The notes below the pieces were generated by a model. It did not search any database. It had not been told where the DNA came from and worked only from the letters and a program-made list of their open reading frames with translations. Below, one piece after another: positions 27,059-53,644 of a stretch of DNA of 64,000 nt. The translations under genes were made by a program, and so were the position numbers. Source of the DNA: Gracilariopsis chorda (Eukaryota; Rhodophyta; Florideophyceae; Gracilariales; Gracilariaceae); contig NBIV01000007.1 of assembly GCA_003194525.1 (NCBI GenBank), forward strand, positions 310,001 through 374,000, read 5' to 3'. Position 1 is the stretch's first letter. Every line of letters begins with the position of its first letter.

Positions 27059-30000
27059 TGTAGTAGAATACTACGTCCTTTGGTCAACTGGGGTAGTAGT
27101 CTACTAGGGGGTGGTAGCGGCAGAGAGCCAACCACTGGGGTGACAATCCACTGGGTCTACTAGTGGTGCGGGCACCAACTGGCAGCGAGGCGCAATGGGC
27201 GGGTGCTATCTCAAGTCCCTACAGGTCGGGAGAATGGTAGCGATGGCTTGGAGGCCTTTGGAGTCTTACTGGCTGTATATGGCGGCAAGAAGATGGTGAG
27301 GGTGCTTCTCTTTACACTTCAGAGATCGGCGGCACTCGAGCCAGCCTATATGGCCGGCGAGGCACTCTGACCTCCGGACACTATCCTAACAAATTAAATA
27401 AAATTAGCTACATAATAAAACCTATGATCACAGTGCCTTGGCACTCGCACTGTCCCCTTGTATCTCCTGCATAGGCAACCAGCTTGGCTACGTGGAATAT
27501 TTCGGCCAGCAATGTTCTGACCTCTGCCAGCCTAGCCCCATGGTTACCTCACCACTGCATCTGCCCAATGGTCATTCTCCTACAGACCTCCCCCTTAAGA
27601 TCCGACGTCCCGTCGGAAACTTCCACGTCGGTGAGCTATCCTTTTATTACGCTGGCGTTCTCTCCTCCCACCCAATGGGGTTGTTGCTTTCGCGTCCTCT
27701 CTCCCGACTAGGTCTCTCTCCTCCTGGTTGACATGGCTGGTAGGCCCTTCCACAGCAGGTACGGCGGCGGTGCTGGTTTGCGTCCATTTGGCTGCTTTTT
27801 CGGCAAGTGGCACGTGGCCACTACCATGCCATTGGTCGCCTACGAGGGGGCCTCATTAACTAGTGAGTCTCAACGGCGAGGCGCTCCTCGTGCTTCTGCA
27901 TTTCACCGACCCCTGGCGCGGGCGCCCATACTTCCCTCTCGATTACCTCGTCCTTCTGGTCGCTCTTTTCTTTGCATACCGCCTTGGTGCATCCACTATA
28001 CCCGCCCCTTCGGTAGATCGTGGTGCATTCCCTTGGCCTTTCAGATTCCTGACCGTTGGTCTCCCCTGGCGCCGTGCCCGCTGTGCCAGCTTGTCGATCG
28101 CGTCTACGCCATGTCCTCAGGGGCATATAAGGGCTCCCATGGCTACCTCTTGGACTATGACGGCTTCGAGCGTATCCCTTGGGTGCCAATAACTGTAGAC
28201 TCGACCAAAATGGCTCTGGTCCCCAGCAGCACATATATCCACCCCGGGGACGAGTACGACCACACTTTGGTTCGGAATCCTATGGCCATGAGGAGTACCC
28301 ATCTACCTAGTTCGGTCGCCGAGTTCGTGCGGTATGCTGATCAATACTTGGACGCCCAGCGGTTCGCTGCGATCCCCAACTACGCCTTTGCGAAGAAGAA
28401 CTCCCAAGAGGACTCCTGGTACAACCGTTGGCTCCACCTTCCTGCTGATGCCCGTTCGGTCGCGCGTTGCCGCGCTCTGGTCCCACCGGATATGCCCCTC
28501 TTCCGCTGCGGCGAGGAGCCTGATTACCAATGGAGAGTAAACAAGCTCCTGGAGGACGTGTATTCGATGCATGGTGACCCTAAGACCCCCTTTCCTCCCA
28601 CTGGTCATATCCCCCTGGGGTTAGTCTGCTTCAGACCTCCATACGACCGCTTGTACTGGTTATCGAACTGGACCTATTGGAATGATATGATCGAACCCGA
28701 TGGTCGTATTCGAACCAACCTCAAGTACTTCTTCTGTTGGCACCAAGTGGTATTTCACGATATGCCTCCGTCCCGCAGGTCCTCTCTATATCTCATGCTA
28801 CCGTCACTTAGCGCCGGACCTGAGTCTGCCATCTGGCACGTTTCCAATCTCCTTATGGTCCCTACTCCGCCCGTGGTGGCCTACCACACCTATCAGCTCC
28901 AGGGGGACTTCACTAAACGTCTCCCCTGGCTGACCTGGAAGGTTCTTTTTGCCGCATGGGCCGTGTTCTGTTTGATGGCCTTTCTGGATACCGCCCGCTA
29001 TGGGGTCCAAGCTAACGTCCGGGATGCCGACTGCCGTATGTGGAACGAGCTGGTTCTTCCCAGTCCTGAAGGCCGACTGGTGCCCCTTCCGCGGCCCTTG
29101 ATCCGGCTCATCCGTGAGTTGGGAGTGCAGAACATTGTCCGGGGTACGGAGTACGAGAGCGAAGAGGCCGAGGCCCTATTGGATTATGTCCTTCAGGTCG
29201 ACTGGGCGCAGACCCCCGGGTTCCTTTGGTACGACTATGACACCGACACCTTCTTTCCGATCCCGCGACATCCTTTAGGAAATGACGACGGGAACGTCTA
29301 CCAGGCCAAACCATTGCTGGCTGTCCCCGTGACCTAGCCACGTCAGTCCGTGCCGGATTACTATCCTCAGGCCATTGAGTTTCACGAATATTTGTCTTCG
29401 TCCTCCAGTACGGGAGCAGGCGGTAGTTCCTGTACCGGCCCCATCGGTAGCGCCGTCTTTCGTGCCGGCGCATGAGGTTGCCGTGGAAGAGCCCCAGAGG
29501 CGTCCACCGGTCCCTTGGCTTCCCCACCTCCCACGTCAATGACGGTTTCCGCCCTTTGGTCCCTCCTCTGCCTCCCGTGCCGGTCATTCCAGAGGTCATC
29601 ACGATGGAATTCGATGACCTGAAGAAGTTATGCACGTCCGTCGGTATCCTTGAATCCACTGGTATCGTAGAGGCTCTTCGTTCCGCCCAATACTGGGCTC
29701 ACCGGGCTTCGCGGTACCACTCGCTGGTTCAGCGTAACCAAGAGGTCAAAGACGCCCTAGCGACCATCCTGGAGGAGAACTCTAAGGTGTTGTCCGAGCG
29801 TGTCGCGACAGACCTTGATAACCGCTTTGGTCTTAACCTTTCGGACACGGAGTTTGCCAGTGGTGCCTCATCCTCTTCCGCCCAGATTCCAGCTCGCAAG
29901 CGCGCCCACACGGGATCCCCTTCTCAACCGGCTGCATCGTCCTAGTGGTCGTCCTTATGGCCAGTAGTCCTCAGTAAACACTTTGGTTCTGTTCTTTGGC

Positions 30001-31300
30001 CCTTCTAGCGTCAGGGTGTGCGTCATCTCTGTCGCGCTCCATTGGTCTTCATCTCTACCCTTGAATACCACTAGGTCGGTTTTGAAACAAGTCCCTGGGG
30101 TTTTGGTGCACTCTCCTTATAGGTGAGCAGTCCGCGCTTCGTTCCTGAGGTTTTCGGCCTTGATGACCCAAGGACTTCGGAGTTATGTGGCGTCCAAATC
30201 GGTCATCGTCGCGGTAAACCTTCGGAAGAACTGGCGCGTGGCCAGCGAGGGGGGCGGCGTGGGAGGCGGTTCCGTGGGTTACGTGGCCAAAAGCAGTGTT
30301 CCTATTGGGTGGAGGCGGATTGGGTCCGTGCTGGCGCAAATTTGTGGCCAGAGATACCCCCCTCCTTAAGGTCACGCTCCGTGTGCCCAGTTTTTGACCA
30401 ATAGCGGGCCACAAATTTATCCGGGATGTATGACCTCGGAAGCCAAGTATCGTCCTTGGGCTCATAGCCATACCAACGGACTTTGTAGCGCACTTCGCCA
30501 TCGTCTGTGAGCCCAGCGGAGACGATGCGGTCGACGATATACTCCCGTTGGTCGTTCATTCCGGCTTCCTCCGGTAGGTCCATCTGGTCGAGGGGACCGT
30601 ACCCGTCAGCGTCCGAAGGAATAGCGTCGGGGGTTTCCATAGGGTCGGGTACTTCTTTGGGAAGTACCGCTTCATTCAGGGGACCGTAGACATCGGGTAA
30701 AGGGCCTTTTGCATCCGCGGAGACCTGCAGTTCCTGAGGGCCTGTAGGGTCATTGACCAGTGGTTGCGTAGGGATGGAGGGCGGGGTTTGGGGCGAAGGG
30801 AAAGCGCGCGAGTCTAATGGTCCAGTTGAAGGTGGGCGTGGCGCCAGAGAAACTTGGTCCATTGGGACTGTGTCCTGGAGCCCATCTCGGTGGATAGTAA
30901 CCATGTGCCCAAAGGACTTAAGTCCCTTGAAGGGCCCAGTGGACTTTGGCAACAGCTTCTTGGTGATGTCCTCGTCCTCGGGCTTTTCCTTCGGTGGTCT
31001 GTCCAAGTGGACGTAATCTCCCACGGCTAGCTGCGGTGTAAACCAAACGGACCGTTCGAAATCGGCCTTATGGCACGCTTGCGCTTTGTCCAACGTGGTC
31101 TGTGCGGCCTTCAGGATAGAATCAATTCGCTTCTGCGAATACCGTTTGGGCTGGGCGGGATTCATTTCCTCCGTTAGGTCCTGAGGTGCTCTTAAGTCCT
31201 GTTGGTAAACCATGTACGGCGCAGGGGCCCGTGCGAGGGTGAGGTCAAAAGGAGTTGTACCAGTGGACTTACGTCGGTGTTCTTGGAATGCTAGATAGAG
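27059..31300 (-). mobile_element. Ty3/gypsy chromovirus, 3' half only
   Basis: Fossil gypsy element lying on the minus strand. Parts from left to right: a probable 3' LTR (27059-27584, starting TGTAGTAG and ending CTCCTACA), a polypurine tract on the minus strand beside it (CTCCCCCTTAAG on the plus strand), a long reading frame on the opposite strand (27733-29337, with a second at 29472-29945), and then the C-terminal part of integrase with a chromodomain (31300-30302). The integrase shows STGTTPFDL, then a Pro-rich linker and a chromodomain with YIVDRIV and VRWYGYEPKDDTW. gag, protease and reverse transcriptase are absent. The piece ends where the cassette at 31271 begins. It looks truncated, with the remaining parts largely open. 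Confidence 0.8.
27733..29337 (+). CDS. Antisense reading frame inside gypsy element
   Basis: A 534-codon plus-strand frame opposite to the element's own genes, between the chromodomain and the 3' LTR. It is rich in Trp, Tyr and Pro. A related frame sits at the same place and orientation in the second chromovirus (53645-55309). The two share the order PR-x-LIRLIR-x-L, a Gly-rich turn, an acidic E-x-LL-x-D segment, DW-x3-P, then a G-F-x-YY-like stretch. Function is unknown. Extra antisense genes are known in some plant LTR elements, but this family was not recognised. It is treated as part of the fossil element. Confidence 0.6.
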   Translation: MAGRPFHSRYGGGAGLRPFGCFFGKWHVATTMPLVAYEGASLTSESQRRGAPRASAFHRPLARAPILPSRLPRPSGRSFLCIPPWCIHYTRPFGRSWCIPLAFQIPDRWSPLAPCPLCQLVDRVYAMSSGAYKGSHGYLLDYDGFERIPWVPITVDSTKMALVPSSTYIHPGDEYDHTLVRNPMAMRSTHLPSSVAEFVRYADQYLDAQRFAAIPNYAFAKKNSQEDSWYNRWLHLPADARSVARCRALVPPDMPLFRCGEEPDYQWRVNKLLEDVYSMHGDPKTPFPPTGHIPLGLVCFRPPYDRLYWLSNWTYWNDMIEPDGRIRTNLKYFFCWHQVVFHDMPPSRRSSLYLMLPSLSAGPESAIWHVSNLLMVPTPPVVAYHTYQLQGDFTKRLPWLTWKVLFAAWAVFCLMAFLDTARYGVQANVRDADCRMWNELVLPSPEGRLVPLPRPLIRLIRELGVQNIVRGTEYESEEAEALLDYVLQVDWAQTPGFLWYDYDTDTFFPIPRHPLGNDDGNVYQAKPLLAVPVT

Positions 31301-31500
31301 GTGCTAGATCGCAAGTTTCTTAGGCAAAAGCTCAAAGATACTACGAAAATGATAGATTCTGCTAGTTTCTGGCGCTTGCCAAGTAAAAAAATTTTTTTTG
31401 GAATTCACACTTCCATATCTTACAGAGCCTTGCCTCACCTGCACTGCGCATCGCTAGTTTCAAGTTTGGAGCAAGTTCATTCCCCACTAAAAGCTAGATA
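31290..31500 (+). repeat. Left subterminal GCTAG motif array
   Basis: GCTAGTTT occurs at 31361-31368 and 31453-31460, and GCTAGAT variants at 31290, 31303 and 31493, all in the same orientation. Similar motifs cluster at the right end of the cassette. Such arrays are typical transposase-binding sites. A GC-rich dyad (GGCGCTGCGCGCTGCGCGGCC) follows near 31513. Confidence 0.6.
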
Positions 31501-31746
31501 AAGATCTCGAAATGGCGCTGCGCGCTGCGCGGCCAGTGCCATTTCGAGCACCCAACCAAAACTAACATTTTTATTTCCATCTTTTGAATTTCAAACTTCA
31601 TACTGCCCTAGTTTGACTTCCAACTCATCCTCAGGAAGTCATCTGGGCAGCTCACTCCGTTCTCACACACCCGACGCACCCCGCACCAGATTCCAATACC
31701 ACCCATTCCGTCGTCCTAACAGCCTCAACGACACTCCTAAACATCA

Positions 31747-32465
31747 CTAGCCTTCTTCTCCCTCTTCCCTCTTTCCATGCCTCCTCTTCAACCGGCTCTT
31801 AACCTCCAATCCTTCTTCTTCCTTCTCCTCCAACCTTCTTTTCACGCGCCCTCTACCTCCAAGAGTAACCGGAGACACACTCCCGACAGCACCTCCCACC
31901 CCACCTTCCCTTCCACCTCCATACATCTTGTTCCGCATATCCTCGACTAGACGCACAGCCCTGCCCACCAGTAAAAGCCGCTTCTCCAACTCCAAAATCC
32001 GTCCTCGCAACTCCTCATTCTACTTCCACGGCCTCCCCAGCTTCTCTGCCACACACGCCACAGCCTTCCCAGCTCCTCTACCACACACGCCACAACCCCA
32101 TCGACGTGCTGCTCTGCCCACACCCCAGCCTCCCTCACCCTCCGGCGCAACTCAGCCACAGCACCCATCGGCACTCCTTCGTTCGACGCACTCAGAACCA
32201 TCCCTCCCAACTCCACGACAACCTCCTCAATACACTCATCCAAACGCTCCTTAAGCCCTACCCCAGTGCTCCTCAATAGTTCCTTCACATTACGGTAGAA
32301 CCCATCCATTCGTCTCCCTCCACCTCCCCCTACCCCTCCTCCTCGACAACCCACGCCCGCACTTCCCTCCCCACCATCCCCTCCCATCATCGTCCCAACC
32401 CCAAGCTCACTGACCGAAAATTGCAAATAGTAGTCATGGTGCGTGTGGATGTTCTCAAATGACAT
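31747..32465 (-). CDS. Small charged helical protein, broken or spliced
   Basis: The frame starting at ATG 32465 (172 codons) begins with an odd leader. A Gly-rich patch then precedes a helical part from MDGFYRNVKELLRSTG to EELGRLW. A 33-bp tandem duplication (about 32035-32100) throws it out of frame. The natural continuation seems to be a second frame (about 32076-31747) with ELRGRILELEKRLLLVGRAV, a likely coiled coil, and a Lys/Arg-rich nuclear-type tail. No family was recognised. It lies at the left end of the cassette and may be a DNA-binding or assembly factor, but that is inference. Confidence 0.35.
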
Positions 32466-32471
32466 GAATCC

Positions 32472-32534
32472 TCAAGAGTCGTGAATGAATGTTCAAGAGT
32501 CGTGAATGAATTTTCAAAAGTCGATAATGAATGT
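32472..32534. repeat. 21-nt unit repeated three times
   Basis: Units at 32472, 32493 and 32514 share TCAAGAGTCGTGAATGAA with a few changes. They sit just upstream of the small helical gene's start on the other strand and could be protein-binding sites. Confidence 0.85.
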
Positions 32535-33281
32535 CCCACCTCTTCACTTGAACCAAATTCGTCACTGCTTAAATGCACAGCTTATCATCTTCTCATTTGC
32601 TCACCCCTTGTCCTTCCCAACACACAAAACAATATTTTGAACCTCTACAGGATAATTCCTTCACCCTCTTCACTCTTCTTCATACATCAAGCACGCCACA
32701 ATGCGTTCATGTATGAAAAGAACCAGTACTTTCTATATCAACAGAATGGACAATCGCGGTATTTGGCTATAACAACGGGATCCTTCACACCCGTACAATC
32801 ACTTTCAATCCTCATACATAATCCCATACTCAATTTTACATCCATTCGTGTTTCATATGAGCGGCCCCTTCATTCTCCCCTCCCATACACCCATCCCAAG
32901 TTTCTTCTCATACTTGTAGACCTTTCTTTATGGAATGTAACAAAGCAAAATCTTTGTAGACATCATCCCTTCATTATAACGCATCATTCGAATGAAGCCG
33001 CTTAAAAAGTAATCCCCATCGTAGTAAACCTCTCCCATTCACTATAAAAATTCACTATAAACATTCATTATAAAGATCAAAAAGCAATCATCAGATTTAA
33101 CAAACGTATATCACTAGTTTACTTATCATTATCAATCGCTCTCATCGTCCTCACCTATCAGACCGTCTGGTCCTTTAGGAACCATTTCACCCTCATCGTC
33201 ATCCTCCTGTTCATCATCTCCATCAGTGTTCATTTCCGCTGGTTTCAGTATATTCTCATCGTCCTCATCATCCGACGGGTT
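32535..33281. other. AT-rich spacer inside the cassette
   Basis: A 174-codon plus-strand frame (32481-33005) starts at GTG inside the 21-nt repeats and has the composition of chance sequence. Three near-copies of TTCACTATAAA lie at about 33035-33075. The 2-oxoglutarate oxygenase-like gene ends at 33282. Confidence 0.45.
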
Positions 33282-34835
33282 CTAACCTACGGCTTCTTGC
33301 ATAACTACATCTCTATCGTCAGCTTCATCTCCCTGCTTTTCTTCCCCTCCTCCCACCTCACATAAATCGCCACGGTACTCTTCATCATTAAAAGAGGGAG
33401 GGCGAAAACCGCTTTGCCTATGCACCGCATCTCGGAGATTGTATCCCTCAGGTACAAAGTACATATGGTATCGCATGCAATAGCCTTTTGCTATTGCATC
33501 ATTGTACCCAGCCTTAGCATGAAATACATCCCCGCTTCCAATGAACACAGAAAACGGTGGAACTCTGAACTTCCGAACCATCATAGAAGCCGAAAGCTCT
33601 TTCAAGTTACCCCGTTTCATTGTTAGAGTATGTGACCGTTCACAAACCCAAATCATGAACGCATCTGGTCCCGATGCCATTGCAAAATACCCCGGGTTCA
33701 CGTTCCTCATCCTGTCATTCTCCGTCAAACCCCTGAAATCCGTGTGTAGCACCTGCCTCGGACAATCCTCTCCAGTACAAAGGATACGGCCACCTGTGTG
33801 AGGGGCATACATCGTTCCACCTTCAGACAACCCGAGAGCCGCTGCAATCTGACCGAGCCTTGCATCCAACATGGCTCTCTTTCGACCAAGAACCGCACCG
33901 TTTTCAAGCTCCTCAATTCTGTCCGCAATCCCTCGTTTGGTTGTGATGAAACGCTCCACCGCCTTGATACCATTCTCAACATCCTTTACCCCTCCTCCAT
34001 CGATGATCATATACCAGAAAACACGATTCGCTTCGTTCGTGAGATCCGGTTGCGAAACAAAGTCGCGTTCGAAGAAGTGCATCAGTTCTCCTATCACATT
34101 TTCGTCCATTTGCAGTCCCCTCTTCGAAGCCTCACTCGCCATGCCTTCATCTGTCCCAAAATTCTCCAGCACACAAAACCCTCTCTCCGACAGCTCCACT
34201 CTCTTCTTCGCAAAGTAAACACGAGCCAAGTCCTCTCTCTCAAAAGCGGCCATCCATAACGCTTCCTCTTCATTCGATGTCGTTCCTGATGACGGCATCT
34301 TCAAGCCCAGCACTGCACGTGTCGTAGTACCCATCTCTTTTTGCATGTTGCGTGACGCACGCCAGTACACAGCATGATGAACCATTCGGAAGTCATCAGG
34401 TGATAGGCACTCCGCCCGATGGTGCTTCCTCAGATTTACCCTCTGCATCCATGGATGGGAATGCTTCACTGCATTTCCGCTTGCAGGCCACTCACTCGGC
34501 AACGAGTATATCAGTTCCACCCAAGACCTTTCCGCTCCCATAGCCAGCTCTCCTGGCGTACTTAAGCCAGCTGGAAGCCTGTGAGAATTCTTATCGTCAA
34601 AGCTGCCTGCGGTTTGCTGCTCCTCTGCCTCGTCTTCCTCATCATCCACAAAGTCCTCCTGAACTTCATCCTCGCTTGACTCAAGCACAATTATCTCCTG
34701 TGGTGTCAACAACCTCTCCAAATCTCTCCTTTCCATACTACGCAGCACCTCCACCACCTCCTGCAGGATACCAAAGCAAGGTCGCTTCACACCAGGTGCA
34801 GTCGGCTTACGATTCGATCGTCTCTGCCTCTTCAC
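33282..34835 (-). CDS. 2-oxoglutarate/Fe(II) dioxygenase-like protein
   Basis: 517 codons. The C-terminal third has the double-stranded beta-helix iron motif: H-x-D in VLHTDFRG (about residues 362-364), a distal His in GSGDVFHAKAGY (about 436) and a following Arg in YCMRYHMYF, suited to bind 2-oxoglutarate. The segment SGPDAFMIWV between them fits a core strand. The N-terminal 120 residues are basic, then very acidic (SSEDEVQEDFVDDEEDE). The middle is helical. Position 34835 is GTG. The first ATG is residue 34 (34736), or the frame is joined by splicing to the preceding gene, with which it overlaps by 4 nt. Such enzymes hydroxylate DNA bases, RNA or proteins. Whether this one is TET/JBP-like cannot be decided by eye. 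Next to a DNA methyltransferase gene, a role in erasing or altering DNA marks is plausible. Confidence 0.65.
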   Translation of the reverse strand: MKRQRRSNRKPTAPGVKRPCFGILQEVVEVLRSMERRDLERLLTPQEIIVLESSEDEVQEDFVDDEEDEAEEQQTAGSFDDKNSHRLPAGLSTPGELAMGAERSWVELIYSLPSEWPASGNAVKHSHPWMQRVNLRKHHRAECLSPDDFRMVHHAVYWRASRNMQKEMGTTTRAVLGLKMPSSGTTSNEEEALWMAAFEREDLARVYFAKKRVELSERGFCVLENFGTDEGMASEASKRGLQMDENVIGELMHFFERDFVSQPDLTNEANRVFWYMIIDGGGVKDVENGIKAVERFITTKRGIADRIEELENGAVLGRKRAMLDARLGQIAAALGLSEGGTMYAPHTGGRILCTGEDCPRQVLHTDFRGLTENDRMRNVNPGYFAMASGPDAFMIWVCERSHTLTMKRGNLKELSASMMVRKFRVPPFSVFIGSGDVFHAKAGYNDAIAKGYCMRYHMYFVPEGYNLRDAVHRQSGFRPPSFNDEEYRGDLCEVGGGEEKQGDEADDRDVVMQEAVG

Positions 34836-35323
34836 CGGTGGCTCAAATCAACTGACTCTTCATCTTCATCTTCGTCCAGGACCTCCACTTTACGCTTCTT
34901 TGAGATTCGCTTACTTCTTCGAGGCTCCTGGTCAGCGTTTGGAGGCTCCTGAGCAGCTTCCTCATTCAGACCAAGCAACTCGATCACGTCCACATCGGCC
35001 GCAGAGGGAGCAGCAGCAGTAGCATCCTGTCCCTGTATGCCCGACAAAGCGCTGGACAACGTCCTACGAACCTCTTTCACCTTAATACTCACTCTGGACT
35101 CCATTGAACTGCGTTTCCCTTTCGTATACGACTTCCCCAGACGAGATATGATATACTTTGACACAGTCTGGTCAGAATCGCCGATGGTAACCGTGGTATT
35201 CATCACTTCCTGTACATTCTTTTTCTCCTTCATGGAACTCCCCAGCTCACTGCAAATGTCATAAGTTCTAGACGTGCAGTCGAAGAAGTACTTTCGGAAA
35301 TCCTCAAACGGTCCCATCTTCAC
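34832..35323 (-). CDS. Charged protein of 163 residues, unknown
   Basis: It overlaps the ParB-like gene by 20 nt and the dioxygenase-like gene by 4 nt, all on one strand. The N-terminal half (KMGPFEDFRKYFFDCTSRTYDICSELG) looks folded. The second half is Ala/Pro-rich and ends in a nuclear-localisation-like SKRISKKRKVEVLDEDEDEE. The first codon is GTG, with ATG two codons later. Such overlaps are unusual for separate eukaryotic genes, so the three frames may be parts of one multidomain protein joined by small introns or split by frameshifts. Confidence 0.5.
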   Translation of the reverse strand: MKMGPFEDFRKYFFDCTSRTYDICSELGSSMKEKKNVQEVMNTTVTIGDSDQTVSKYIISRLGKSYTKGKRSSMESRVSIKVKEVRRTLSSALSGIQGQDATAAAPSAADVDVIELLGLNEEAAQEPPNADQEPRRSKRISKKRKVEVLDEDEDEESVDLSHR

Positions 35324-36452
35324 AGTGGGCCGCCGATCTCACTCGAACATGCGCCTGTAGACATTGGATAGTAAAACGAAACTTATCCCCTGACATTCCC
35401 AGCAGAATATCAGTAGACACATGAGTGATTCCAATTTGAGGCGTCTCCTGCCACACCACATCGAAGAACTCTAACAGACCAGGATTACGCGCAAACTTCA
35501 GAGCAAGAGCAGAATGGCGATTGAAATGACGTATCTTCCCTTCTTTCCCCTTCGTCTCACTGCTCCACAACACCCCCGTGATTTGGCTTGGTTTAAGCTT
35601 CCACAACTCATACCCATCCTGCTCTACGCCACTACGAATAAACGAAACAGCATTGTGAATCTTATCTGCGAAGGGCATCACCAGAACATTAGAGCTCAAA
35701 TCATTCAACGTCTTCCCCAGCCACAATACCTCATTCAATGTCATTGTTCGGCCATCGTTCCGTTCCCAAAGCGTGGCGTTCAAACCAGCAGTAATCCGTG
35801 CCCATCTCGCACCATCCTGCTCAAGGTCTAGTAGAACACTCACTCGATGGAAGCCGTCCACCAAAACCACAGGACCAATCAAACGCCCACTCGCATCAAT
35901 AGCGTCACGAACCGGCACATCCTCCAACAAGGCCACCGCAATCGACCCAAGAGAAGGGAGCCATCCGAATTTCCTCAGTTTGTTCGAAGTATCTCGAAGA
36001 TGTTTGTCATTCTTCGAACGAACCATGTTCTTCGGAAATCGAATGTTGTGAATATCGATTACGCAATTGTGCTGGTCATAATCATCTCGATTGATGTCTA
36101 AGACCCCCAAACTGTTATCCACCTCTTCCGAAGGAACAGCATCACCGTCATCATATAAAACCGACTCCTCCAGATCAAGATCGTTCCTGGACAGTACAGG
36201 CACCTCTATGACGTCATCATCGGAACTTGCTCCGACTTCAGGGCCTCATCGGTTTCCAGAGCCGCCCGCGCAAGCACCTGATGTTCCTCCACCGCTCTGA
36301 CGGGTTTTCACCGGAGCCTCTCCACCGCTCTCAAGGCTCTTCACCGGCGCTTTGGTCACCAAAATGCTTGATGGTGTACCAGCAACAGCGGGAAGGCGCT
36401 TGACTTGTCTGGCAGTGGTCCTGAAAGCTGTACTTCTGTGTACAGTCTTCAT
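35304..36452 (-). CDS. ParB/sulfiredoxin-fold protein
   Basis: The frame runs from ATG 36452 to 35304 (about 382 residues) with one TGA at 36248-36246. The downstream part alone is open for 299 codons from a GTG. The diagnostic part is VVLVDGFHRVSVLL, the DG-x-HR box of the ParB/Srx superfamily, preceded by HNIRFPKN and K-L-R-K-F-G-W segments typical of the fold (HIRPNP-like strand, helix, then the catalytic or CTP-binding box). Family members bind nucleotides, partition DNA or act as nucleases, and are common in phage and modification islands. The 70 N-terminal residues are basic and low in complexity. The central and C-terminal helical region (NRHSALALKFARNPGLLEFF) has no assignment. Its role in the cassette may be DNA binding or nicking, which is inference. 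Confidence 0.6.
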
Positions 36453-36636
36453 ATTTGCTCCTGACTGCTGTGGAATCTACTCATTCCCCTCTCCGCCTTC
36501 ATTTTTGACACTCATCATCGCAGTGTCCCATGCCTATAAACCCGCTGAAACCATCTCCTTCAAAGTTGCGGGCGGTTCCTCGGGAACCCCAATAACATAA
36601 GGGTACTTCTCATCTTGGTGTGACGAAAAATTTGTG

Positions 36637-37070
36637 TTAAAGATAACCACCAAGTCCTCTCCAGGTCTCTGCGTAGAGGACAGGATGGTTGTGTAGAGAA
36701 CGACAGAGTCTCGTCCCCTGCCCCCCAGTAACCCCCACACCGCGCAATTTCGCCTCTCCTACCTTCACCTTCGCATCACTACTCCCAACTCGTACGAACA
36801 GATTGACCTCCGCATCGCCCTTAAGCACCTGACCCGTATTACCCCCAATTGATGGCTCAGGGTGGCTGGCAGTTCGGGTGGCGCCCCTGCTCTTCGCTTT
36901 GTCTCGCGTGGTCGGCATGTCGATAACACGTCTCTTCGGCGAAACAGGCTTCCTCGGTGTCCGTTTCCGTGATGGCGCGTTTATCTTATTCCCAATGGAA
37001 TCCATGGCTGAGTACTTCAAAGGTCGCGCTTGCGTTTTCTTGGCACCCACTGACGTCGAATGCTCCTGTA
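36637..37070 (-). CDS. Basic protein, hypothetical
   Basis: An open frame of about 140 codons that may begin after GATTACAG, a possible 3' splice site. The first ATG gives MDSIGNKINAPSRKRTPRKP. It is strongly basic with PVSPKRR and nuclear-localisation-like clusters. Its position upstream of the ParB-like gene on the same strand suggests a 5' exon or a small separate gene. No family recognised. Confidence 0.3.
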
Positions 37071-37211
37071 ATCACGTATGCTTGGTTCCAAAGAGATGGA
37101 CGTAAGCACTATATATCGTTTTCAAGACGTTTCATGACATCCATTGTCGTCAACGTAGCACCCCTGCAATTCCCTTCCCAATTACTTGCATTGCAAAAAG
37201 ACTTTGATAAT

Positions 37212-37369
37212 TTTTTGGTCGAGGACCATGGTCCCAGGTGTCGTGGTGCTCCATCGCGAACACGATGGAGTGCCAGGACGCGAAATTTTAATTAAAATTC
37301 ATGCCTTGTGCTCCATTTTAATGGCGATGGAGCACCATGACACCTCGGACCACGGACCTCGACCAAAAA
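37212..37369. repeat. 158-bp hairpin element (MITE-like)
   Basis: The 46-nt arms 37212-37257 and 37324-37369 are inverted copies with four mismatches, starting TTTTTGGTCGAGG. Inside them a smaller dyad (GCTCCATCG and CGATGGAG-GC) repeats the same motif, so the block can fold into a branched structure. It sits between the leftward and rightward gene groups of the cassette, about 40 bp before the methyltransferase gene. It may be a tiny transposon or a shared control site. Confidence 0.9.
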
Positions 37370-37409
37370 CGAAGAGAAACTTAATACGAAGGAAACGGGT
37401 TCATTCAAG

Positions 37410-40400
37410 ATGCACGGAACCGGCAAATAGCTTATTGATGCTTATGTTGTAGTTCGTGATGACTACGCAGCGACGAGGCAAAATGTGGATGAGCCGAGAA
37501 GTTTGAAGCACACCGACTTTGTGGAGTTCGCGGTACAAAGTGGCAAAGTTCATGACTCTGCCAAGAAAATGTTTCTCACTCTCATCGGACCGGATTACAT
37601 CTCGTATTCGGACTCCGAGCTCCATAACATGTCTCTCAGAGACCCTCCACGTCAACTCTATCTTATGGCAAGAGTGGTGGACGTAAAGGACCGTGAAGAA
37701 GACAGGCGTGTAAGGGACTTTTGGAAGGTTTATTGTAAAAGGGAAGGGCTTAAAGAAATTCCCCGTGACGTGTTGCTATCTGTCTTTTGCAAGTCCCGTG
37801 TTCTGAGAGCAGCCAAGAAATCTTCCACATTCCACACGGATCCTTGCACAGACTTTGAAATGGTCATTGGTTTGTCTATTGTGCAACAGAATGCCGTGGA
37901 TAAGAAAGGAAGTGGTAGGAAGAGGAAAAGGGGTATGGCAGCTAAGAAGTTCTCGAAAGTGAGTTTGTCGGACAAGACCCAGAGTCAGAGAGTCGGGTAT
38001 GGTGTGCAGCTGGTGACCAGGGCTTGGGATTGTCTCGCCCAATTCCTCGGGTTTCCCAACGTTTAGGTTATGATCTTGCCTTACATTTGACTCGACTATA
38101 TCAGTGTAGTCTTCACCGATATCGCACAACGCTCCATGGGCTTCCAACACAAAGATTGTTCCAAACAGTTTGTGGAGGAGAAGAACGTCACCACCGTAGA
38201 AGAAAATATTACCAAATGGGCATGGAATCTGCCGGACCCAGTGGATACATCGCTTCGCCTTTGTGCCAAAGAATACCTTGGTGACCTTTCTAATGTGGTG
38301 GTACAAGAGACACTGTTTGACATCTCTGCTCCCAGCAAATGGGATGCCCTCAAAAGGTTCATCATCACGAGAACGAGACTTTTTCCTCTTCGGTTTGAGA
38401 ACTTTAGTGAATCTCTTGTCACTACGGTTCAAGAGGCCATAAAGCCTCTGAAGCTCATTGCATTGCATGGAAGCCATGTCAAAGTACATCAAGCTGTGAA
38501 ACCAGAGCTCGCAGAAGACGTTGACATCATTTTGGAGCCGGTAGAAACTGGTACGGCTGGTGGTGGGAAAAAACGTGCTGAGCATGTGGAAGGTGGTGAT
38601 CAGGGTGAGTTGGAAGAAGTGAAAGAGATAGAGATGGTAGAGGATGCGGAACGTGGTACTGTAGAACGTGGTACTGCACCAAAGGCCACTGAAGGAGTGC
38701 AGACAACAGCTTTGTCGCAGAACTTATCGTATGTTGTCGAAGGCACGGGGATTCGTGCACCACCGTACCCTACGACTTTGGATGATGTGATCGCTTACAA
38801 GTATTTTGAGAAGGAGATGTCCCGCAACTTCCGTCTCCACAACTGCAAGTTCGAAAATCGCATCGAAGTTGTCGACAACAAGTCTGGCGAAAGCGAGGTA
38901 TCTATTGAAGGAAGGGTACAGTTCCTGCTTTCCGATCCGCCATATGGGACTCGTTCTGAGCGTCGTTTGGAGAACAGCGAACACGATATGCTGACAGAGA
39001 AGAGCATGAGCAGGTCAGCGAGGAGGTCGTCAAAGCTTTTACGTCCTGGCGGACATATTCTACAGTTCTGCTCGTGGGATCAGGTACCGTTCTGGCGGGA
39101 TGTGGTACGGAAAGTTACCTACATGGATGACTCTGATACGATGCTTTACTCCTTTGTCGTCGACGAACAGCCTCTCCATTTCTTACGGTCTTTAGATAAT
39201 AAGACGGGTAACGTTGGGAGAAGAAGTTGCCGGTTGCACCAGACGACAGAATACGCTGTACATGCTGTTCGTTCTGGAGTTCCTTATGCACAACAGCACC
39301 GGATGGTCAACTATGAGAACTTCAATTATGTTGCTTCACGATACCCAGCGTATCATGCAACCATGGATCAGGTGCAGCCAATCTCAAATAATGAGATGCT
39401 CATGTGGTCTGTGAAAAACCCGGATGGGAAGTATACGAGGAAGAGGGTGCGACCGGAACAGAAGTGTAGGGCACTGTCGAAAGAGCTGATTTGCAGGGTC
39501 AGTCAGCCAGGAGACCTCGTGGTCTACATGTTTGCCGGAACGTTCTCGACAGCAATGGCGTGCATGGAACTGCCCAAGCATCGGAAATTTGTGGGGTGTG
39601 AACCGGACAAAGCTTGCTTTGAACACGCCAGGCATGCCGCTATTGTTCGCTTCGCTTCCATAATACGGGAAGGACACACGGATATTGAGAAGAGCCAGAA
39701 GCTTCGAAAGATGGCCCATTGTGTTTCCTCTGCATTCCCAATGGGAGGAAGCAGGCACACCGTGTTATGGGGGGCTGTCGACGGATTTCCACAGTACCAA
39801 ATTCTTCCCCCACACCTTGTCCACTTTCTCTCCACTTTGTGGCAAAGTGAAATTCTAGGGAAGTTGGGAAGGAAGAAAGCTATGGATGGATGGCCAAGGG
39901 AGCTGCATGGAAGAATGAATCCGGAGAACATTAAGTCTCTATTGGCAACGGAGGCTGTGCAATGGTTGCGAGTGGGCAAGTCTACTATTTGTCACGAAAA
40001 GGCTGGTGTTGGAGTGTTTGCAACTCGTCGAATTGCTGCAGGCGAGGTAGTGTGCTACGTCTACGGGACGTTGGTTTATCATGAATTTTCGAGTCGGAAA
40101 GAAGTGCACAAGACCTACGGGGAGGGAGTCATGGGTGTGACGAAGAATCGCTTCTGGAAGTATGCGGTGGAGATAGAAGTCTATGGTCAACAGTTCCAAT
40201 CACTTCCGCATCGAAAAAAGATGACGAATTGGTATGGAAAACAAGCAAACCCCATTTTATGGGTGGTTCCTTCCCCTTTTTGTATTGCGGGGTATATCAA
40301 CGATCCAAAGTACGTGTAAGGGGATAAACAGTTAGATGCCATGGTGGACGGCCTCGTGAGAAGAGGGAGGCTAATGTGTGAATGAAACGGACACCGGGAG

Positions 40401-40558
40401 TGGGACGAACACCAGGGAGAATAACGTACTACAAACTCATTAAGATGGAGGTGACAGCCGACATAGAGGAAGGAGAGGAACTCTTCGCCAGATACGGTGA
40501 TGTTTATGACTTGCAAATCCATTTGAATGTGGAGGATGGAACGATAGTCATTGATTAG
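37410..40558 (+). CDS. DNA methyltransferase-SET domain fusion
   Basis: About 1,000 codons, mostly one frame. N-terminal 380 residues: unknown, helical, with a basic GSGRKRKRG patch and an acidic stretch near 38600. Then comes an amino-methyltransferase: DPPYG (38934-38948) followed later by DLVVYMFAGTFSTAMACMEL (about 39514-39573), the S-adenosylmethionine-binding motif. DPPY before FAGT is the permuted order of beta-class N4-cytosine/N6-adenine DNA methyltransferases. The C-terminal 180 residues form a SET domain: GVGVFATRRIAAGEVVCYVYG near 40003, then, after a shift of frame near 40319, EEGEELFARYGDVYD near 40480. SET enzymes methylate lysines. In-frame TAG (37428, 38064) and TGA (38088, 40379) interrupt it, and small introns could hide some of them. 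The fusion pairs a DNA writer with a histone-type writer. It acts in the nucleus by inference. Confidence 0.75.
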
Positions 40559-40801
40559 TTTGTTGTTATAAACCTTTGTCTACAGCTTAGCTAAAGGGCA
40601 ACGTTTATTATTTGAACGGATGTGTAGTTTAAACTTAGGAGAACATCACTTTTCAGTAAGGACAGAAGATACAAAGCAATATAGATGTGATACAGAAACG
40701 TCCATTTTCGGTACCACGGAGGATTGTATTCTCAAGATTTCACTAAAAACAAAGATTTTTGTGCGCATTGGGTGGCGAGATTTTCCCGGACAACACACGG
40801 C
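40559..40801. other. Short spacer between cassette genes
   Basis: About 240 bp. Small frames here have no support. The coiled-coil gene's ATG is at 40802. Confidence 0.4.
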
Positions 40802-43071
40802 ATGCGCCATCCCAGAGCGTCACTAGCCACTTGCGCAAGAGGTTTGACTCCAAGAATAGCGCCGAAAGGAAAGAAGCGAGGCCCGGCAAGGGGTGTTGCG
40901 GCGAGTGCGCCTAAGACGCGGCGTAAGGCTATTGAGGAGCGAACCGCGGGTTGAATGAAAGCGAAATCATGTGTTCTCAAGAGCGGATTAACGGGAAGGA
41001 GGTCAGGAGAAGGTGCTTCGAAGAGAGGGGAAAGAGGTGGGGCAAAGAACGTCGGATCCGAGCACACGACGAGTGAGCGCACGACGAGTGAGAATTTGAA
41101 GGCTGATGCCCATGCGCATGTAGCACGCAGGAGAGAATCGGTTCGGGGACAGCGATCTATGCCTGGATCTGGTGGTGGGGTGGAGGGTAAGAAAAGGCTG
41201 GTTGCTAGGAGAAGGGAAAAGGTACCAGATCAGGGAGGGGTGAAAGCAAATGCGCGGGTCGAAGACCGAAATAAAGATGAAGAAATGCCGGAAAGGAAAC
41301 AAATGGAAGAGGAAGTTGCGCTGAAGAGAGGTGGGGCCTCAAGGGGAAATCAATATGGAGGAGTGGTAAATGTCCCTTTGGTAGAGAGTGATGGGGACGA
41401 AGAGGATCACATTGTGAAGGGGAGATTGACGAGAGAGAGAATAAAGGAAGGAGTGGGACGCCGCTCTGATTTAAAGGAAACGCGAGAAGTGGAAGAAGTG
41501 GTCAGAGCGACGGATGGAATACAGGAAGCATCGGAAAGCGGAGAACGTACGAACACCCCGGTACGGGCTCGAAAAGTGCAAATGGCTCAAGACTTGGAAA
41601 GTGATAAAGGAAGCATAACGCCGCGGACTCCGGAAGGAATGCGAGAGAGACGACGAAGTGTTCATCGGTCTCCAAGTGAGCCTGCTGAGGAGCGACGGCT
41701 GCCTGTCAATATTTTGGGAGATGAAGGGAATGAAGACATCGGTGTGATATCTCGATCTTCGTTAGTTGAGAGGGTCAATATGTTGAAGGCAGAACTCGGC
41801 CAGATCAAAGGGGACCACTGCAGCCTAAAGATGTCGATGAAGCTGATGCAAGAGGAACTGAAGAGGATGAGAGAAGAGATGAGCGAGAAGAATATATTGA
41901 TAGATAGCTTACGGGAATGGATGAAGGTGGGAAGAGGGGAGAGAAAGGGATCTGAAGGTGAAAATGGCTTGAGAGGGCATAGTAAGTATGTAGTTGATGT
42001 GTAAGAGAGTTTTTATGGGTTTGCCAGGGTATTATATGATAGGTTGTTGTACTATGCGAAGGTGGAGGTATCGGAGTTTTGTTTTACTTCGGAGGGTGTG
42101 GAAAGAAACTGGAAAAATCGATGCAAAGTATTGGGGAAGTGAAGAGAGTGGAGTGTGTTTGTCGTGGGAGGAAAGGAAATTGTGCCTCGATGTCCGTTTG
42201 AGATCGCGTCTGAGATGAGGTCGTACACGCCTTCGTCGCGAGGAGGAAGTAATGAACTATTGAAGTACTTGGTTGGCGTTGAGATTGAGGGGGAGAGATG
42301 GCAGTCGATTAGTGATGCGGGTAGGAAGGATCAATGCGCGCAGGAGGTTGTTGCCGACAGGTGTTTGAGGCAACGTATGAAGCAGAATTTGAGTGATGTG
42401 ATTGAGATTCGAAAGCGTGCGGCACCGGACAAAATGCTTTCGTTGCTTGGATATGACTTGATCACCAGACGTGTGAGACCACGAGAGGGAACGGGGCTAG
42501 ACATTGAGTTGAAGAAGCAGTTAAAGAAAGCAAAGACGAAGTTTAAGGGGGATGGGGAGGCGAAGAGCGGTAGTTTATGTTCTTGGAGAATGAGAACAAT
42601 CGAGGATCTTACGTATTCTGGATTTCAGGTTGCTGGTCGGCTGAGGGAGTTTAGTGAAGGGGACATGTATTTCAAGAACGGGGCTGCGGTAGAAGTGTTG
42701 GAAGAATTCATGGGATATAAGGTGGGGACGGAAAGGGAGGGAAAGATGAAGTACGTTGATGGGACAGTGATGCATTTGGCTCGCTTGGATGCGTGGATCG
42801 GATTTCTTTTGACAGCAATGGACACAGATATGGGGCGTGGAGGAAGACGGCAGTTGTTATTTTGTAGTTGTACGGGGAGTATCTTTGGCTTGCGGTGGAG
42901 AAAATACTTGGGGTGCCGTGGGAGAGGGTGAGAGAACTACATCATGAAGAATTGGAGAATAAAAGTTGCGATGACGGTGACCCATGTTTTATAGCTAGAA
43001 ATGGGAGTAGAGAAGCGAAGGTAGCGCTGTGGATACCTTCGAAACGGAAGATTGCGGAGATGGCACGCTGA
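40802..43071 (+). CDS. Charged coiled-coil protein, spliced
   Basis: Exon 1 runs from ATG 40802 (one in-frame TGA at 40952) to about 41981. It encodes a Lys/Arg/Glu-rich low-complexity protein ending in a coiled coil (RVNMLKAELGQIKGD through MREEMSEKNILIDSLREW). A GTAAGT donor at 41982 and AG at 42145-42146 give a 165-nt intron whose splice keeps the frame. Exon 2 (42147 to about 42835) encodes a globular region with VRPREGTGLDIELKKQLKKA and MRTIEDLTYSGFQVAGRLREF. The natural C-terminus is a third frame, 42868-43071 (LYGEYLWLAVEKILGVPWERV), which follows TTATTTTGTAG, a good acceptor. A matching donor was not found. The last 130 bp overlap the transposase-like gene on the other strand. Function unknown. 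Proteins of this shape often act as partners of transposases. Confidence 0.5.
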
Positions 43072-44189
43072 ATGAGGGCCATTCTTGTTTCGCGTGGGAT
43101 GTTGGAAGACGAATGTGGGATGGAGTATCCGTCGCCGGGGGAGGAAAAGGGGAAGAAGAAAGTTGGGAGGTATCCGAGTAGGGTGAGGTTTTGGGAAACA
43201 CACTTTCGGTGGAATGCGTTGGAGAGGTTGAGAAGGGTGATTTGAAGGGGGTAGGAGGTGATGGAGGAGCCTGTGAGTGAGGTTACAGACGTATCGGAGT
43301 ATAACTGGACGAGACAAACGAATGATTCCATACCGGTTGTTTCGGGGGTGTACCGGACGATATCATTGATGTGGCACTGCATGATGGCATGTTTAAAGAC
43401 AGGAACGACTTTGTTTCCGAAGACTGCGGCCATAGGATGGGCGAAGGTGGGGGTTGAAGAAGAGTAAGGTGAAGATTGGGATACGCGTTCTAAGAAGATG
43501 TTGTTGAAGTGTGCGAGAGCGAGTTGTTGCTTCAGGACGTCTGTGGCGCCTTTTTGGAAGAGGGTTGTGGAGAAGGAGTTGTGCTCGTCGGAGATTGTGA
43601 GAGGGAGAAAACTGGTGGAGTTGATACGTCCATTAAGGAGGTGTTCTTGGAGTGCGAGGCACTGCTTTGCGGAGGAGATGGATTTCTGGAAGGATGACTT
43701 GGAGAAGTCTGGGTGGTTGAGAAGGGAGATGAGTTCGTTGGCTCTGCGTGGGCTGAAGGAGGAAGCAATGGAGGAGATGCAGAGGACGAGTTGGTCGAGA
43801 TGGGGATTGTTGAGGAGAAGGGAAGGGGATTGGGACGAGGTATGGGGAGGTGGGTTTGGGGAGGAGACTGAACAGAGGGCGTGACTTGCCATGTGGTGTG
43901 CGTTATGTTTTTGGAGGGAAAGGGAGGCCTGTTGGATGTGATAGGGTTCATCTTCGGCGAGGGGGACGTTGTCGGAGGGGCGGTGTGAGGGAGTGGGAGA
44001 AGGAATGGTGGAGAGGTTTGGAACAGATTTTCGTCGCTTGGTCCTTGGAGGGAACTGGATGGGAGCGTTGGCGGAGGAGGAAGGGCGTTTGTCGGGGGTG
44101 AGTCGATGAGGGCACCTGCGTTGGTGACTGTGGAGAGAGAACGCGGTGCGGCCATAGAAGGTGCAACGGGGATGGCAACAGGGTATCAT
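42942..44189 (-). CDS. Zinc-finger protein like KDZ/Plavaka transposases, N-terminal half
   Basis: The frame is open from 44387, but its first ATG is at 44189, giving 415 residues. It begins with a C-x3-C-x12-H-x3-C zinc finger (MIPCCHPRCTFYG to HQRRC), then a Ser/Pro-rich basic linker, then a folded part. The diagnostic piece is VQLYSDTSVTSLTGSSITSY, followed by PLQITLLNLS and LLGYLPTFFF. KDZ/Plavaka transposases have the same order: LYSD with the first catalytic Asp, a YP-x3-x-GN strand, then LLGYLP. Then come RETRMALIQRAISAIF and the frame stops near where those proteins carry YPLL-x3-DYPEQ. The remaining catalytic residues are thus absent here. Position at the very end of the cassette fits a transposase. 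The match is by eye and needs a profile search. Confidence 0.5.
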   Translation of the reverse strand: MIPCCHPRCTFYGRTAFSLHSHQRRCPHRLTPDKRPSSSANAPIQFPPRTKRRKSVPNLSTIPSPTPSHRPSDNVPLAEDEPYHIQQASLSLQKHNAHHMASHALCSVSSPNPPPHTSSQSPSLLLNNPHLDQLVLCISSIASSFSPRRANELISLLNHPDFSKSSFQKSISSAKQCLALQEHLLNGRINSTSFLPLTISDEHNSFSTTLFQKGATDVLKQQLALAHFNNIFLERVSQSSPYSSSTPTFAHPMAAVFGNKVVPVFKHAIMQCHINDIVRYTPETTGMESFVCLVQLYSDTSVTSLTGSSITSYPLQITLLNLSNAFHRKCVSQNLTLLGYLPTFFFPFSSPGDGYSIPHSSSNIPRETRMALIQRAISAIFRFEGIHSATFASLLPFLAIKHGSPSSQLLFSNSS

Positions 44190-44521
44190 GGCGGGGGAAG
44201 GAAAACGGAGAACGGGATGCTTGGAAACAGAGAAGGGAGGGTGGTGGCGGAGTGGGATATCGCGGAGCGTAATATTATGGCGCACGTAGATGAGGTGGTG
44301 CACGTGATGCAGAGCGTCTTTTCGTAGGGCGTGGGGTAGAGCATGCGATGCAGGGAGCAGGTCGGGCAAGAGGTGATAGAAAGCCAAAGCTATTTGGTTC
44401 TGTAAACGCTATGTATCTATTCTATCTATTCTATTTTGCTATTTGAAGGGGCACTCGCTCAGGGCCAGTAAGATTTGGCTTCCCCATGCACCTGAGAGGG
44501 TAGGTATTAGTGGAGTCTGGC

Positions 44522-44719
44522 GCTAGTTTTACCTCCAAAGAAACTGGGAAATTCCTAGTATACTGCTAGTCTTTTGTCCCAAGCAAACTAGCTCTGTGCT
44601 ATGTATGGAATTATTTTGAGAAATTTGATTCATTCAGAATTGGGTTTGAAGAGCTTTATTCGTTCATTTTAATTCTTTGGCTTTTGAATGCCAAACTAGC
44701 ATAACGAGAACACCGACGT
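44522..44719. repeat. Right subterminal motif array and inverted repeat
   Basis: GCTAGTTT at 44522-44529, GCTAGTCT at 44565-44572, and the reverse form AAACTAGC at 44585-44592 and 44693-44700. The last joins the 24-nt inverted repeat at 44696-44719. Counting both ends, the exact 8-mer occurs five times in under 500 bp and was not noticed elsewhere in the window. Confidence 0.6.
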
Positions 44720-45545
44720 TGGACACGAGAGAGTCAGTTAGCGGTTGGCCACAGTAGCGGACCTGAACCACACATTGTGTGATGAATTCTAACTAGTTTT
44801 ATTTATTACGTCACACCAATTTCTGGGATGGTTAGTACTATGCCGCTGCACCTGTAAACCTTCCCCGAATAAGCGGTTCTGGCTCTAGACATTGTGGCCT
44901 TTGTGAGTTGTCTACTTTCTTTGGGTGGATACTTCGTTGCTTACGGTTGTCTAACCCCCCTTGCACAATTTAAGAGACCCATCATCGGTGTTTTTTCAAC
45001 GACCATTGTGTTTTTGCCTTTTATAAGGTATGGAGCCGTCATCGCCGTTTCGCCTCGTCACTCTCGCAACTACCTTATCCTTATTTCTTGCCCTTTACCA
45101 TTAACAGAATAGCTTTCAGCTATCCACTGCTCGTGCTCGCCCAGGCCCACATGTGACATTTTTTCTGGAACTGGCATGTCTAAGAAAGAGGTTAACAACG
45201 CTTCTACGGATAAATGTAGAGTAATGGCCTCCGAGGTACTTGCGGATATATCTGCTCATACATCAATAATTAGAATTGGTGTCCAATGTTTAACCGCACC
45301 ACCCTCTATTCCTACTCGTCCGATGTGAGAAGAGATCAATTTTGTCCCAGCCTTACCTTCCGATACATGCACCAAAATTCATATAAATTGATCAAACCGC
45401 CGGCCCTGCTGGTGAAGAACAATATGGGTGGACGACGGATTAGCGCAATAAAGTGCGAAAAATTGAGTAGTTTATGGCGAAGAGAAGGCGGACCATGCCA
45501 CTTAGACTGTAGAAGACGATTCTGTTCACTTAATTATGCGACAGT
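44720..45545. other. Spacer with small unsupported frames
   Basis: A 50-codon frame with ATG at 45176 (MSKKEVNNASTDKCRVMASE) and a 72-codon hydrophobic frame at 44894-45112 have no known family. This DNA does not read as the integrase part missing from the gypsy copy at 31.3 kb, so the cassette is not a simple insertion into that copy. Confidence 0.35.
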
Positions 45546-46380
45546 TGTAGTGAAATGACCGAAGATGGGGAACCCCACGGACACATTAGGGTTCTTCCTC
45601 TCTTGAGCGGAACTGAGCGGCAGAGCCCTTCGGGGAATGACACGACTACGTAGGGTGTAGGAGACCGAAGCCAGTCTTTTGAAGCCTGAGTGGGAAGCAG
45701 GGACTAAGAATCGGTTACAACAGAGAGTGAAATGTGTCTCTATTTTAGAGATTTTTGTCCGACAAGAGGCGGTATGTGCGAGCTCAAGCTAGCAACATGC
45801 CGGGGAAAGCGGAAAACTACCCCAGCAAGGAGAAGTGACGACATATGAGTATGAGAGAGTCATGAGAGTGATGAATTAAAGCAGCTATGACGGGGGAGCA
45901 TTTTATACAAGGGCAAAACCAAATTGATCGGAAAAACACTCTTAATGACAGGTCCCTTTATTTTTGGAAGCGGGTTGAGACAACCGTGAGCAACGGAGTA
46001 TCCCTCCTTGGAAGAGTAGTCAACTTGCAAAGGCCACAATATCTACACCCAGGAAACCTTAGTTGTGGAAGGTATACTGGTGCAGCGGCTGGTGAGCCGT
46101 CGCACTAACTATACACCGTACTAAAAATGGGTGTAAACTAACAAAATAAACTAACTAGAACTCACCCCACAATATTTGGTTCACTTCCAGTATGGTGGCC
46201 AGCCACTAACTGACTCTTTCGTGCCCCACGTGTCCAAATCATTAGCTCGCTGGGCCAATATTCATATGGGCAGTTCAAATGATGCACACTACCAAAAATT
46301 TCCGGAAATAATACGAAATCACCAGATATCCACTACAGAGGGCATGCAATTAATATCTCCCTCTTTATTCGGAAAAACAA
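45546..46380 (-). mobile_element. Ty3/gypsy-type LTR, solo or truncated
   Basis: Same block order as the LTR at 2399-3260: a TGTAG start, GAGCGG-CAGAGCCCTT, TATACAAGGGCAAAACC, an AATAAACTAACTAG stretch and GTGGCCAGCCACTAA. It is closest to that copy, with further matches down to about 46370. Its orientation agrees with minus-strand elements, so it is not the 5' LTR of the plus-strand gag that follows. About 46390-46410 resembles the sequence just inside the LTR at 53376. It is old, worn, and has no coding part of its own. Confidence 0.55.
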
Positions 46381-53376: not shown

Positions 53377-53644
53377 TCTCCCCCTCCTTAAGGCAAGGGT
53401 TCACGCCTCCCAGCGCGGGAAATTGCCCACTGCCGGTGCATAAATACTCGAGCCACAATGGCGACTACCGACTCCCAGTTTCTTCTTCACACTCTCAGAA
53501 GGCTCCGAGCGATCCGGGTACAGGGTCACAATCTCCTCCGGTTCCTCGGCTTCAATCTTCTTCTCTGATCTCTCCTCTTTCGCCAGGAATGCAGCCTTTT
53601 CACACCAACCCGCTCCGGGATCATCGCCAGCCGCGCGGCCGGCT

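Follow-up and report, generated by a model that had tools for sequence, protein, structure and literature searches.

A giant Plavaka-type transposon of a red alga with a DNA methylase-SET fusion and a ParB-like/dioxygenase-like fusion

Why should genes for DNA modification and chromatin lie together between a pair of shared ends in the genome of a red alga? The question is raised by a 64,000-nt stretch of Gracilariopsis chorda DNA (contig NBIV01000007.1, positions 310,001 to 374,000; hereafter the window, in whose own coordinates all positions are given). A first-pass annotation, made from the letters alone, marked positions 31271–44719 as a transposon-like cassette with genes for a ParB-fold protein, a dioxygenase-like protein, a DNA methyltransferase fused to SET and a zinc-finger protein. 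Genome-wide copies and their ends identify this interval (13,449 bp, + strand) as belonging to a high-copy DNA transposon that measures 17.6 kb at full length; the copy here is a derivative shortened by internal deletions. The full-length element encodes a Plavaka-type transposase and two fusion proteins, one joining a DNA methylase to a SET domain and the other a ParB-like part to a dioxygenase-like part. Judged from these predicted proteins, the chances are slightly better than even that the cargo of this giant Plavaka-type element sets a chromatin state that would let its copies be expressed and move in the face of silencing by the host.

A high-copy DNA transposon with a Plavaka-type transposase

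The element is bounded by imperfect terminal inverted repeats (TIRs) of 24 nt, at 31271–31294 (+ strand) and 44696–44719 (− strand), which are 88% complementary; the termini read CGTCGG..CCGACG. In ten copies compared with that of the window, homology begins and ends at these repeats within 2–3 bases, which bears out the boundaries first proposed. Scanning the genome (91.3 Mb, 1081 contigs) returned the left 1 kb at at least 40 places including the window (the best 40 of 135 first-look candidates; the others 89–92% alike) and the right 1 kb likewise at at least 40 (the best 40 of 143 candidates; the others 92–95% alike). Outside the 40 left ends, the search also gave 30 short hairpin-match rows and one second piece of contig C230. 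Among the matches listed, both ends lie on a single contig in the correct orientation in 14 cases, the window included. The window copy and ten others (6.5–20.7 kb) were compared in full and three more pairs at their ends only. Copies with the same ends and gene order are present, as expected of the DNA transposon suspected at first pass.

Target site duplications (TSDs), which the first-pass annotation proposed looking for, are also found. Of the 14 paired copies, 9 have a 2-bp duplication (P = 1e-4 by shuffling), one of these nine (on contig C314) with a degenerate right end, and 0/14 have a 3-bp one; with lengths up to 8 examined, 2 bp is the longest in the 14 pairs. The flanks of the window copy read TA/TT. 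The family's 23-nt end word recurs in related subfamilies, with 23/23 positions at the end of sister subfamily F2 and 21/23 at that of F4. No unoccupied site matching the window copy turned up when one was looked for, both flanks being other mobile DNA. On the left (30302–31303) is the C-terminus of a Gypsy integrase with a chromodomain-like end, severed at the left end of the transposon, and no continuation of it appears in the right flank as far as 52000. On the right (44720–46237), another terminal-inverted-repeat element (TTGGACACG...CGTGTCCAA, arms 75–80% alike) abuts the right end. Further out, proteins encoded at 27712–29337 and 53444–55309, and at locus L048, look alike by eye and lie close to Gypsy-like ORFs.

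The genome itself holds 15 matches to the light-harvesting family PF00504 (best E = 8.5e-36) and seven to the phycobilisome-linker family PF00427, one of which (C60:127799) shares a contig with a copy of the element (C60:153994). Nuclear light-harvesting and phycobilisome-linker genes together point to a red alga. A fungal host was considered and rejected: hydrophobin and STE3 searches gave no match, although their controls were silent too, whereas the two photosynthetic gene families are present. The cassette is a red-algal DNA transposon.

The transposase matches a single family, Plavaka (PF18759), at E = 4.1e-19 in the full-length copy C46 (69.4 bits, cut-off 26.3). What the window retains is an N-terminal remnant with a C2HC finger (42942–44408, − strand; E = 2.3e-4, 21 bits, below the cut-off), the rest of the domain having been deleted. 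Plavaka has been kept separate from KDZ (Kyakuja-Dileera-Zisupton) elements, with 2-bp (or 2–3-bp) TSDs rather than the 7- or 8-bp TSDs of KDZ, and with catalytic acidic residues accompanied by C(2)C and H(3-4)H motifs (Kojima 2025, PMC12730594, here and below in its accessible sections). A CPRC is visible in the transposase frame of C46. Of the KDZ/Plavaka likeness assigned to the zinc-finger protein at first pass, the Plavaka half is retained. A KDZ identity is rejected, since Plavaka alone was matched and the TSDs are of 2 bp, not 7 or 8. The transposase is of Plavaka type, and its element, with termini outside both PlavakaA and PlavakaB, is a member of neither.

The full-length element is represented by C46 and C63, which align colinearly over 17.6 kb with 94% identity. 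From left to right the element carries a GELGVG-type gene (−), a membrane-protein gene (−), the ParB-like/dioxygenase-like fusion (−), the methylase-SET fusion (+), a coiled-coil gene (+) and the Plavaka transposase (−). The window copy is decayed and non-autonomous, having lost the transposase core to a 2.36-kb deletion at about 43050 that five others share (6/11 copies). A 1.5-kb deletion in the membrane-protein gene (junction about 32407), common to three others (4/11 copies), fused the start of that gene to the GELGVG-type gene in the ORF at 31947–32465 (− strand). The coiled-coil/helical protein gene (40955–42931, + strand) is split into two ORFs in this copy. Across 32001–44000 the GC skew is mirror-image (−0.42 left, +0.53 right), with the transposase read from the pyrimidine-rich strand.

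Two fusion genes in the cargo

The methylase-SET gene (37395–40555, + strand) has a frame break at about 40360, inside SET, and is the fusion that the first-pass annotation described. Its N6_N4_Mtase domain (38916–39629, + strand) matches PF01555 at E = 9.5e-14 in the window frame (52.3 bits, cut-off 26.7). In alignment A1, DPPY lies ahead of the S-adenosylmethionine-binding motif (DPPYGT before FAGTFST in the window), which is the permuted, beta-class order. Protein Data Bank sequences matched include DpnA (5e-13) and CcrM (3.6e-8), a relative matches PHROG 67 (E = 1e-22), and the ten homologues found among 8000 scored database sequences all match PF01555. A beta-class N6A/N4C methylase is well supported as a prediction. 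The SET domain (40005–40555, + strand, its tail in another frame) is a good call in relatives, where E-values fall as low as 1.5e-8; it is seen in 9/10 of the database homologues, in six of them over the cut-off, and weakly resembles KMT2C and KMT5A. Methylase-SET matches are present in 10/11 F1 copies, the exception being C32.

A viral or bacterial carrier of the gene set was considered and rejected. Viral contigs gave one methylase match (29% over 75 residues) and none for the ParB-like or dioxygenase-like part, and six bacterial loci match the methylase over 54–239 query residues. The phage methylases, 38 records, are all below 60% identity.

The ParB and dioxygenase genes annotated separately at first pass are one broken gene (33135–36990, − strand), because an open 1417-aa frame in sister subfamily F2 (contig C204) contains both parts and its residues 58–1417 cover window positions 36990 to 33135 in several broken frames. 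The same arrangement holds across the genome, a ParB-like match lying directly upstream on the same strand at 65 of the 71 dioxygenase-like loci (in tables of the best 83 of 232 and the best 93 of 165 candidates).

For the ParB-like part (35409–36245, − strand; alignment A2), hhalign against YbdM and five phage ParB-like proteins gave P = 1.1e-4 and a probability of 56%, around a DGFHR motif, with three unrelated control profiles at 0.1–0.4%. This suggests, with moderate confidence, a ParB identity for the N-terminal part of the fusion. Searching the database with it gave one match among 2381 scored. ParB-like genes lie beside PAPS-reductase genes in the Arthrobacter phage LiSara (L065), where a methyltransferase gene also adjoins, and at the phage loci L063, L064 and L067.

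In the putative Fe(II)/2-oxoglutarate dioxygenase-like part (33375–34439, − strand; alignment A3), the order HTD...GDxxHAxAG...RYH provides, at motif level, an HxD...H facial triad and a 2-oxoglutarate-binding Arg. HTD is present in 7/7 members, and GDxxHAxAG and RYH in the 5/5 whose frame stays open across that region, the remaining two being cut or frameshifted there. On these motifs a dioxygenase is probable. A kinship with PhyH was rejected: the layout is similar by eye, but hhalign to three host PhyH genes gave 0.5%. The database search with this part returned none among 8000 scored. Between the divergent fusion genes, a 66-nt inverted repeat (37212–37369, 82%) recurs in most of the compared copies and may be either a small inserted sequence or a promoter element common to both genes.

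The dioxygenase motifs bear on the kinship drawn at first pass with fungal KDZ-type transposons that travel with TET/JBP genes. Like PlavakaA, PlavakaB and the TET+ Plavaka of Agaricales, the present element combines a Plavaka transposase and 2-bp TSDs with the idea of an epigenetic cargo. Unlike them, it has CGTCGG...CCGACG termini (TGT..ACA in A, CATCA..TGATG in B; PMC12730594), lives in an alga rather than a fungus, and shows no match to the TET/JBP model; PF12851 found nothing over the genome, though the control genomes were silent too. The picture of a KDZ-type element from a fungus, equipped with a TET/JBP eraser, could draw on the existence of fungal TET+ transposons, Plavaka among them (PMC12730594), and on the HxD...H...R-like motif seen here. 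With a red-algal host, a Plavaka transposase, the missing Tet_JBP match and HxD in place of the HxE in the PE type of TET+ Plavaka (PMC12730594), we consider it the most improbable of the explanations weighed. The KDZ and TET/JBP kinship is not supported; no match to a known family came from the dioxygenase-like part.

Selection between subfamilies and probable recent movement

There are subfamilies at 69, 55 and 42–44% identity in the dioxygenase-like part, and in F4 the ParB-like part shares 26% identity with that of the window. Contig C179 of F4 groups the fusion with a methylase-SET gene (33% to P0001), a membrane gene (34% to F2) and a GELGVG gene; the arrangement of the last two is not that of F1. 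A subfamily with no more than about 26–44% identity, depending on the part, retains some of the gene set.

Selection between subfamilies was tested for the fusion, the N part of the methylase, the membrane gene and SET. The ratio of nonsynonymous to synonymous substitution rates (dN/dS) is 0.15–0.19 in the fusion, with 0.27 in the ParB part of F3. It is 0.15 in the N part of the methylase, 0.37 in the membrane gene and 0.10 in SET, the last with dS near saturation; dS is saturated in two further comparisons. A pair within subfamily F6 gave 0.80. The genes tested are under purifying selection between subfamilies. Both fusions have persisted throughout the divergence of the subfamilies, so they are probably of use to the element. 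Chance juxtaposition of the genes is rejected by the copies, the linkage and the selection.

The F2 copies C550 and C31 are each 99.2–99.3% identical to C204 over 3.3–3.5 kb of the left part, all three lying close to contig ends. Unless these are assembly duplicates, such near-identity implies that the lineage moved recently, and we conclude that F2 was probably mobile in the recent past.

Proposed role and relation to known elements

How might such a cargo serve its element? The full element would be mobilized by its own transposase, which would recognize the terminal repeats and probably also the CTAG-rich arrays inside them. The ParB-like/dioxygenase-like protein would bind, and perhaps oxidize, element DNA or chromatin. 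The methylase-SET protein would write N6-methyladenine or N4-methylcytosine together with a histone-lysine mark, and the two fusions would jointly give element copies an anti-silencing chromatin state. That the ParB part binds DNA, that oxidation takes place, which base and histone site are marked, self-targeting and anti-silencing are proposals drawn from the predicted proteins, and self-directed marking as a whole is likely. The first-pass annotation imagined an element that writes and perhaps erases its own epigenetic marks; writing can fairly be inferred from the methylase-SET fusion, whereas erasing might be read from the dioxygenase motifs. We put forward only tentatively, as a distinctly bolder proposal, a two-protein kit in which the ParB-like/dioxygenase protein would load on the element (perhaps at the CTAG arrays) and oxidize or remove marks while methylase-SET writes a bacterial-type DNA mark together with a histone mark in a single step, giving the element a heritable chromatin state of its own, apart from the host's.

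CTAG-centred words form subterminal arrays at 31291–31750 (seven in the first 500 bp) and 44523–44699 (five in the last 500 bp). In C46 the outer 900 bp hold 11 such words against 15 in the 14.6-kb interior, about an 11-fold enrichment. First-order simulations gave P = 0.003 on the left, 0.05 on the right and 0.0005 for the left ends of F2 and F4. The transposase, the methylase or both may act on these words. One alternative builds on them: methylation would control transposition, with the methylase marking the arrays, the transposase binding or cutting only in a certain state (for example after replication), the SET and ParB-like parts targeting, and silencing irrelevant. The presence of the words at both ends, their identity at left-end positions 20 and 33 in F1, F2 and F4, and the bacterial permuted type of the methylase all fit. 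Yet subterminal repeats are the usual transposase-binding sites of CACTA-like elements and could bind transposase here without methylation. The right-end enrichment is borderline on its own, the specificity of the methylase is conjectural, and the SET fusion points to chromatin. We regard control of transposition as rather unlikely, if the strongest of the alternatives, and favor anti-silencing self-marking over it.

Several results weigh against self-marking. Transposase and cargo are seen together only in F1. The F2 contig C204 stops inside the methylase gene, and the 2.9 kb past the F4 methylase-SET gene on C179 contain no ORF of at least 170 aa. The SET match in the window frame is below the cut-off (0.0025, 18.7 bits against 22.4), as it is in three of the ten database homologues, with SET not found in one. 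SET domains usually carry an NH pair, which reads ND in 9/11 rows of A1. The F4 methylase (C179, L040) has DAPY and FSEMFTT where F1 has DPPY and FAGTFST; that of C179 may be inactive or altered, and not every lineage need be active. The ParB-like part has no match in Pfam, NCBIfam or PHROGs, PF02195 found nothing over the genome (11/14 controls matched), and hhalign to P1 ParB gave only 0.3%, a weak match. None of the seven A3 members matched a dioxygenase profile in Pfam, and the dioxygenase-like part has no Protein Data Bank sequence match. Finally, dN/dS within F1 (6–11 copies) is 0.71–0.98 for the cargo and 0.52 for the transposase, which looks like drift.

Cargo ratios near 1 within F1, and the many copies that carry broken genes, are what one would expect if host or foreign genes had been trapped between the ends, as in Pack-MULEs, with no role for the element. 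Such passive carriage is at odds with purifying selection between subfamilies, with the 65/71 linkage and with a methylase-SET fusion in 9/10 homologues, and we give it very little credence. Marginally more credible, and still improbable, is that the cargo acts outward, altering host chromatin or competing with other mobile elements. Self-targeting is itself inferred, and the window also holds other elements (the Gypsy-like ORFs); outward action has no support of its own, and the authors who described ParB-methylase proteins in algal transposons read them as possibly acting on their own element (PMC12477816, in the sections available).

Those proteins are the closest precedent. Sola1-1_Ec32 of Ectocarpus, from a 21.5-kb Sola1 family, encodes an 1104-aa protein with ParB-like and N4C/N6A methylase domains, and similar proteins in green and red algal transposons are cited to Iyer 2011 and Petroll 2025 (PMC12477816). 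Like Sola1-1_Ec32, the present element is a large algal DNA transposon with ParB-like and N4C/N6A methylase accessories and the same proposed role. Unlike Sola1-1_Ec32, where one protein has both domains, it places them in separate proteins, ParB-like with dioxygenase-like and methylase with SET, beside a Plavaka transposase. In the bdelloid N4CMT, too, a eukaryotic protein links a PF01555 methylase of bacterial type to a chromatin domain; that enzyme was said to lack eukaryotic homologues. It is, however, a host gene with a chromodomain, not transposon-borne and SET-joined as here (Rodriguez 2022, PMC8885841, accessible part). SET genes have also been placed in oomycete transposons: HarbingerS and MuDR of Phytophthora resemble our element in carrying a SET histone methyltransferase gene and differ in transposase class, and the accessible text mentions neither a DNA methylase with them nor ParB (PMC12730594). 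In the available portions, the term N6_N4_Mtase is absent from a 2026 review on DNA methylation in fungi (PMC13297926), and a paper on Gracilaria sex chromosomes lacks the words Plavaka and methyltransferase (PMC12502185).

The first-pass annotation knew of no named element with this gene set. ParB-like and N4C/N6A-methylase proteins in algal transposons are already known in the accessible literature, and what is distinct here is the two fusions and the Plavaka transposase. Neither a methylase-SET nor a ParB-dioxygenase fusion was found in a transposon in that literature, in which subscription papers are mostly missing, so that this is no proof of novelty. Petroll 2025 is said to describe one lineage of giant Plavaka transposons that proliferated in a red alga, Bostrychia, and these may be of the same kind as the present element.

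Within this transposon lineage, one predicted enzyme under selection combines a bacterial-type DNA methylase with a domain of the histone-methylating type, which bears on whether a transposon in a eukaryote can set the state of its own chromatin. If the proposed role is true, a mobile element would couple DNA marking to histone marking, and the short list of PF01555 methylases in eukaryotes would gain another entry. Near-identical copies suggest recent movement, which would make self-marking directly testable in this alga.

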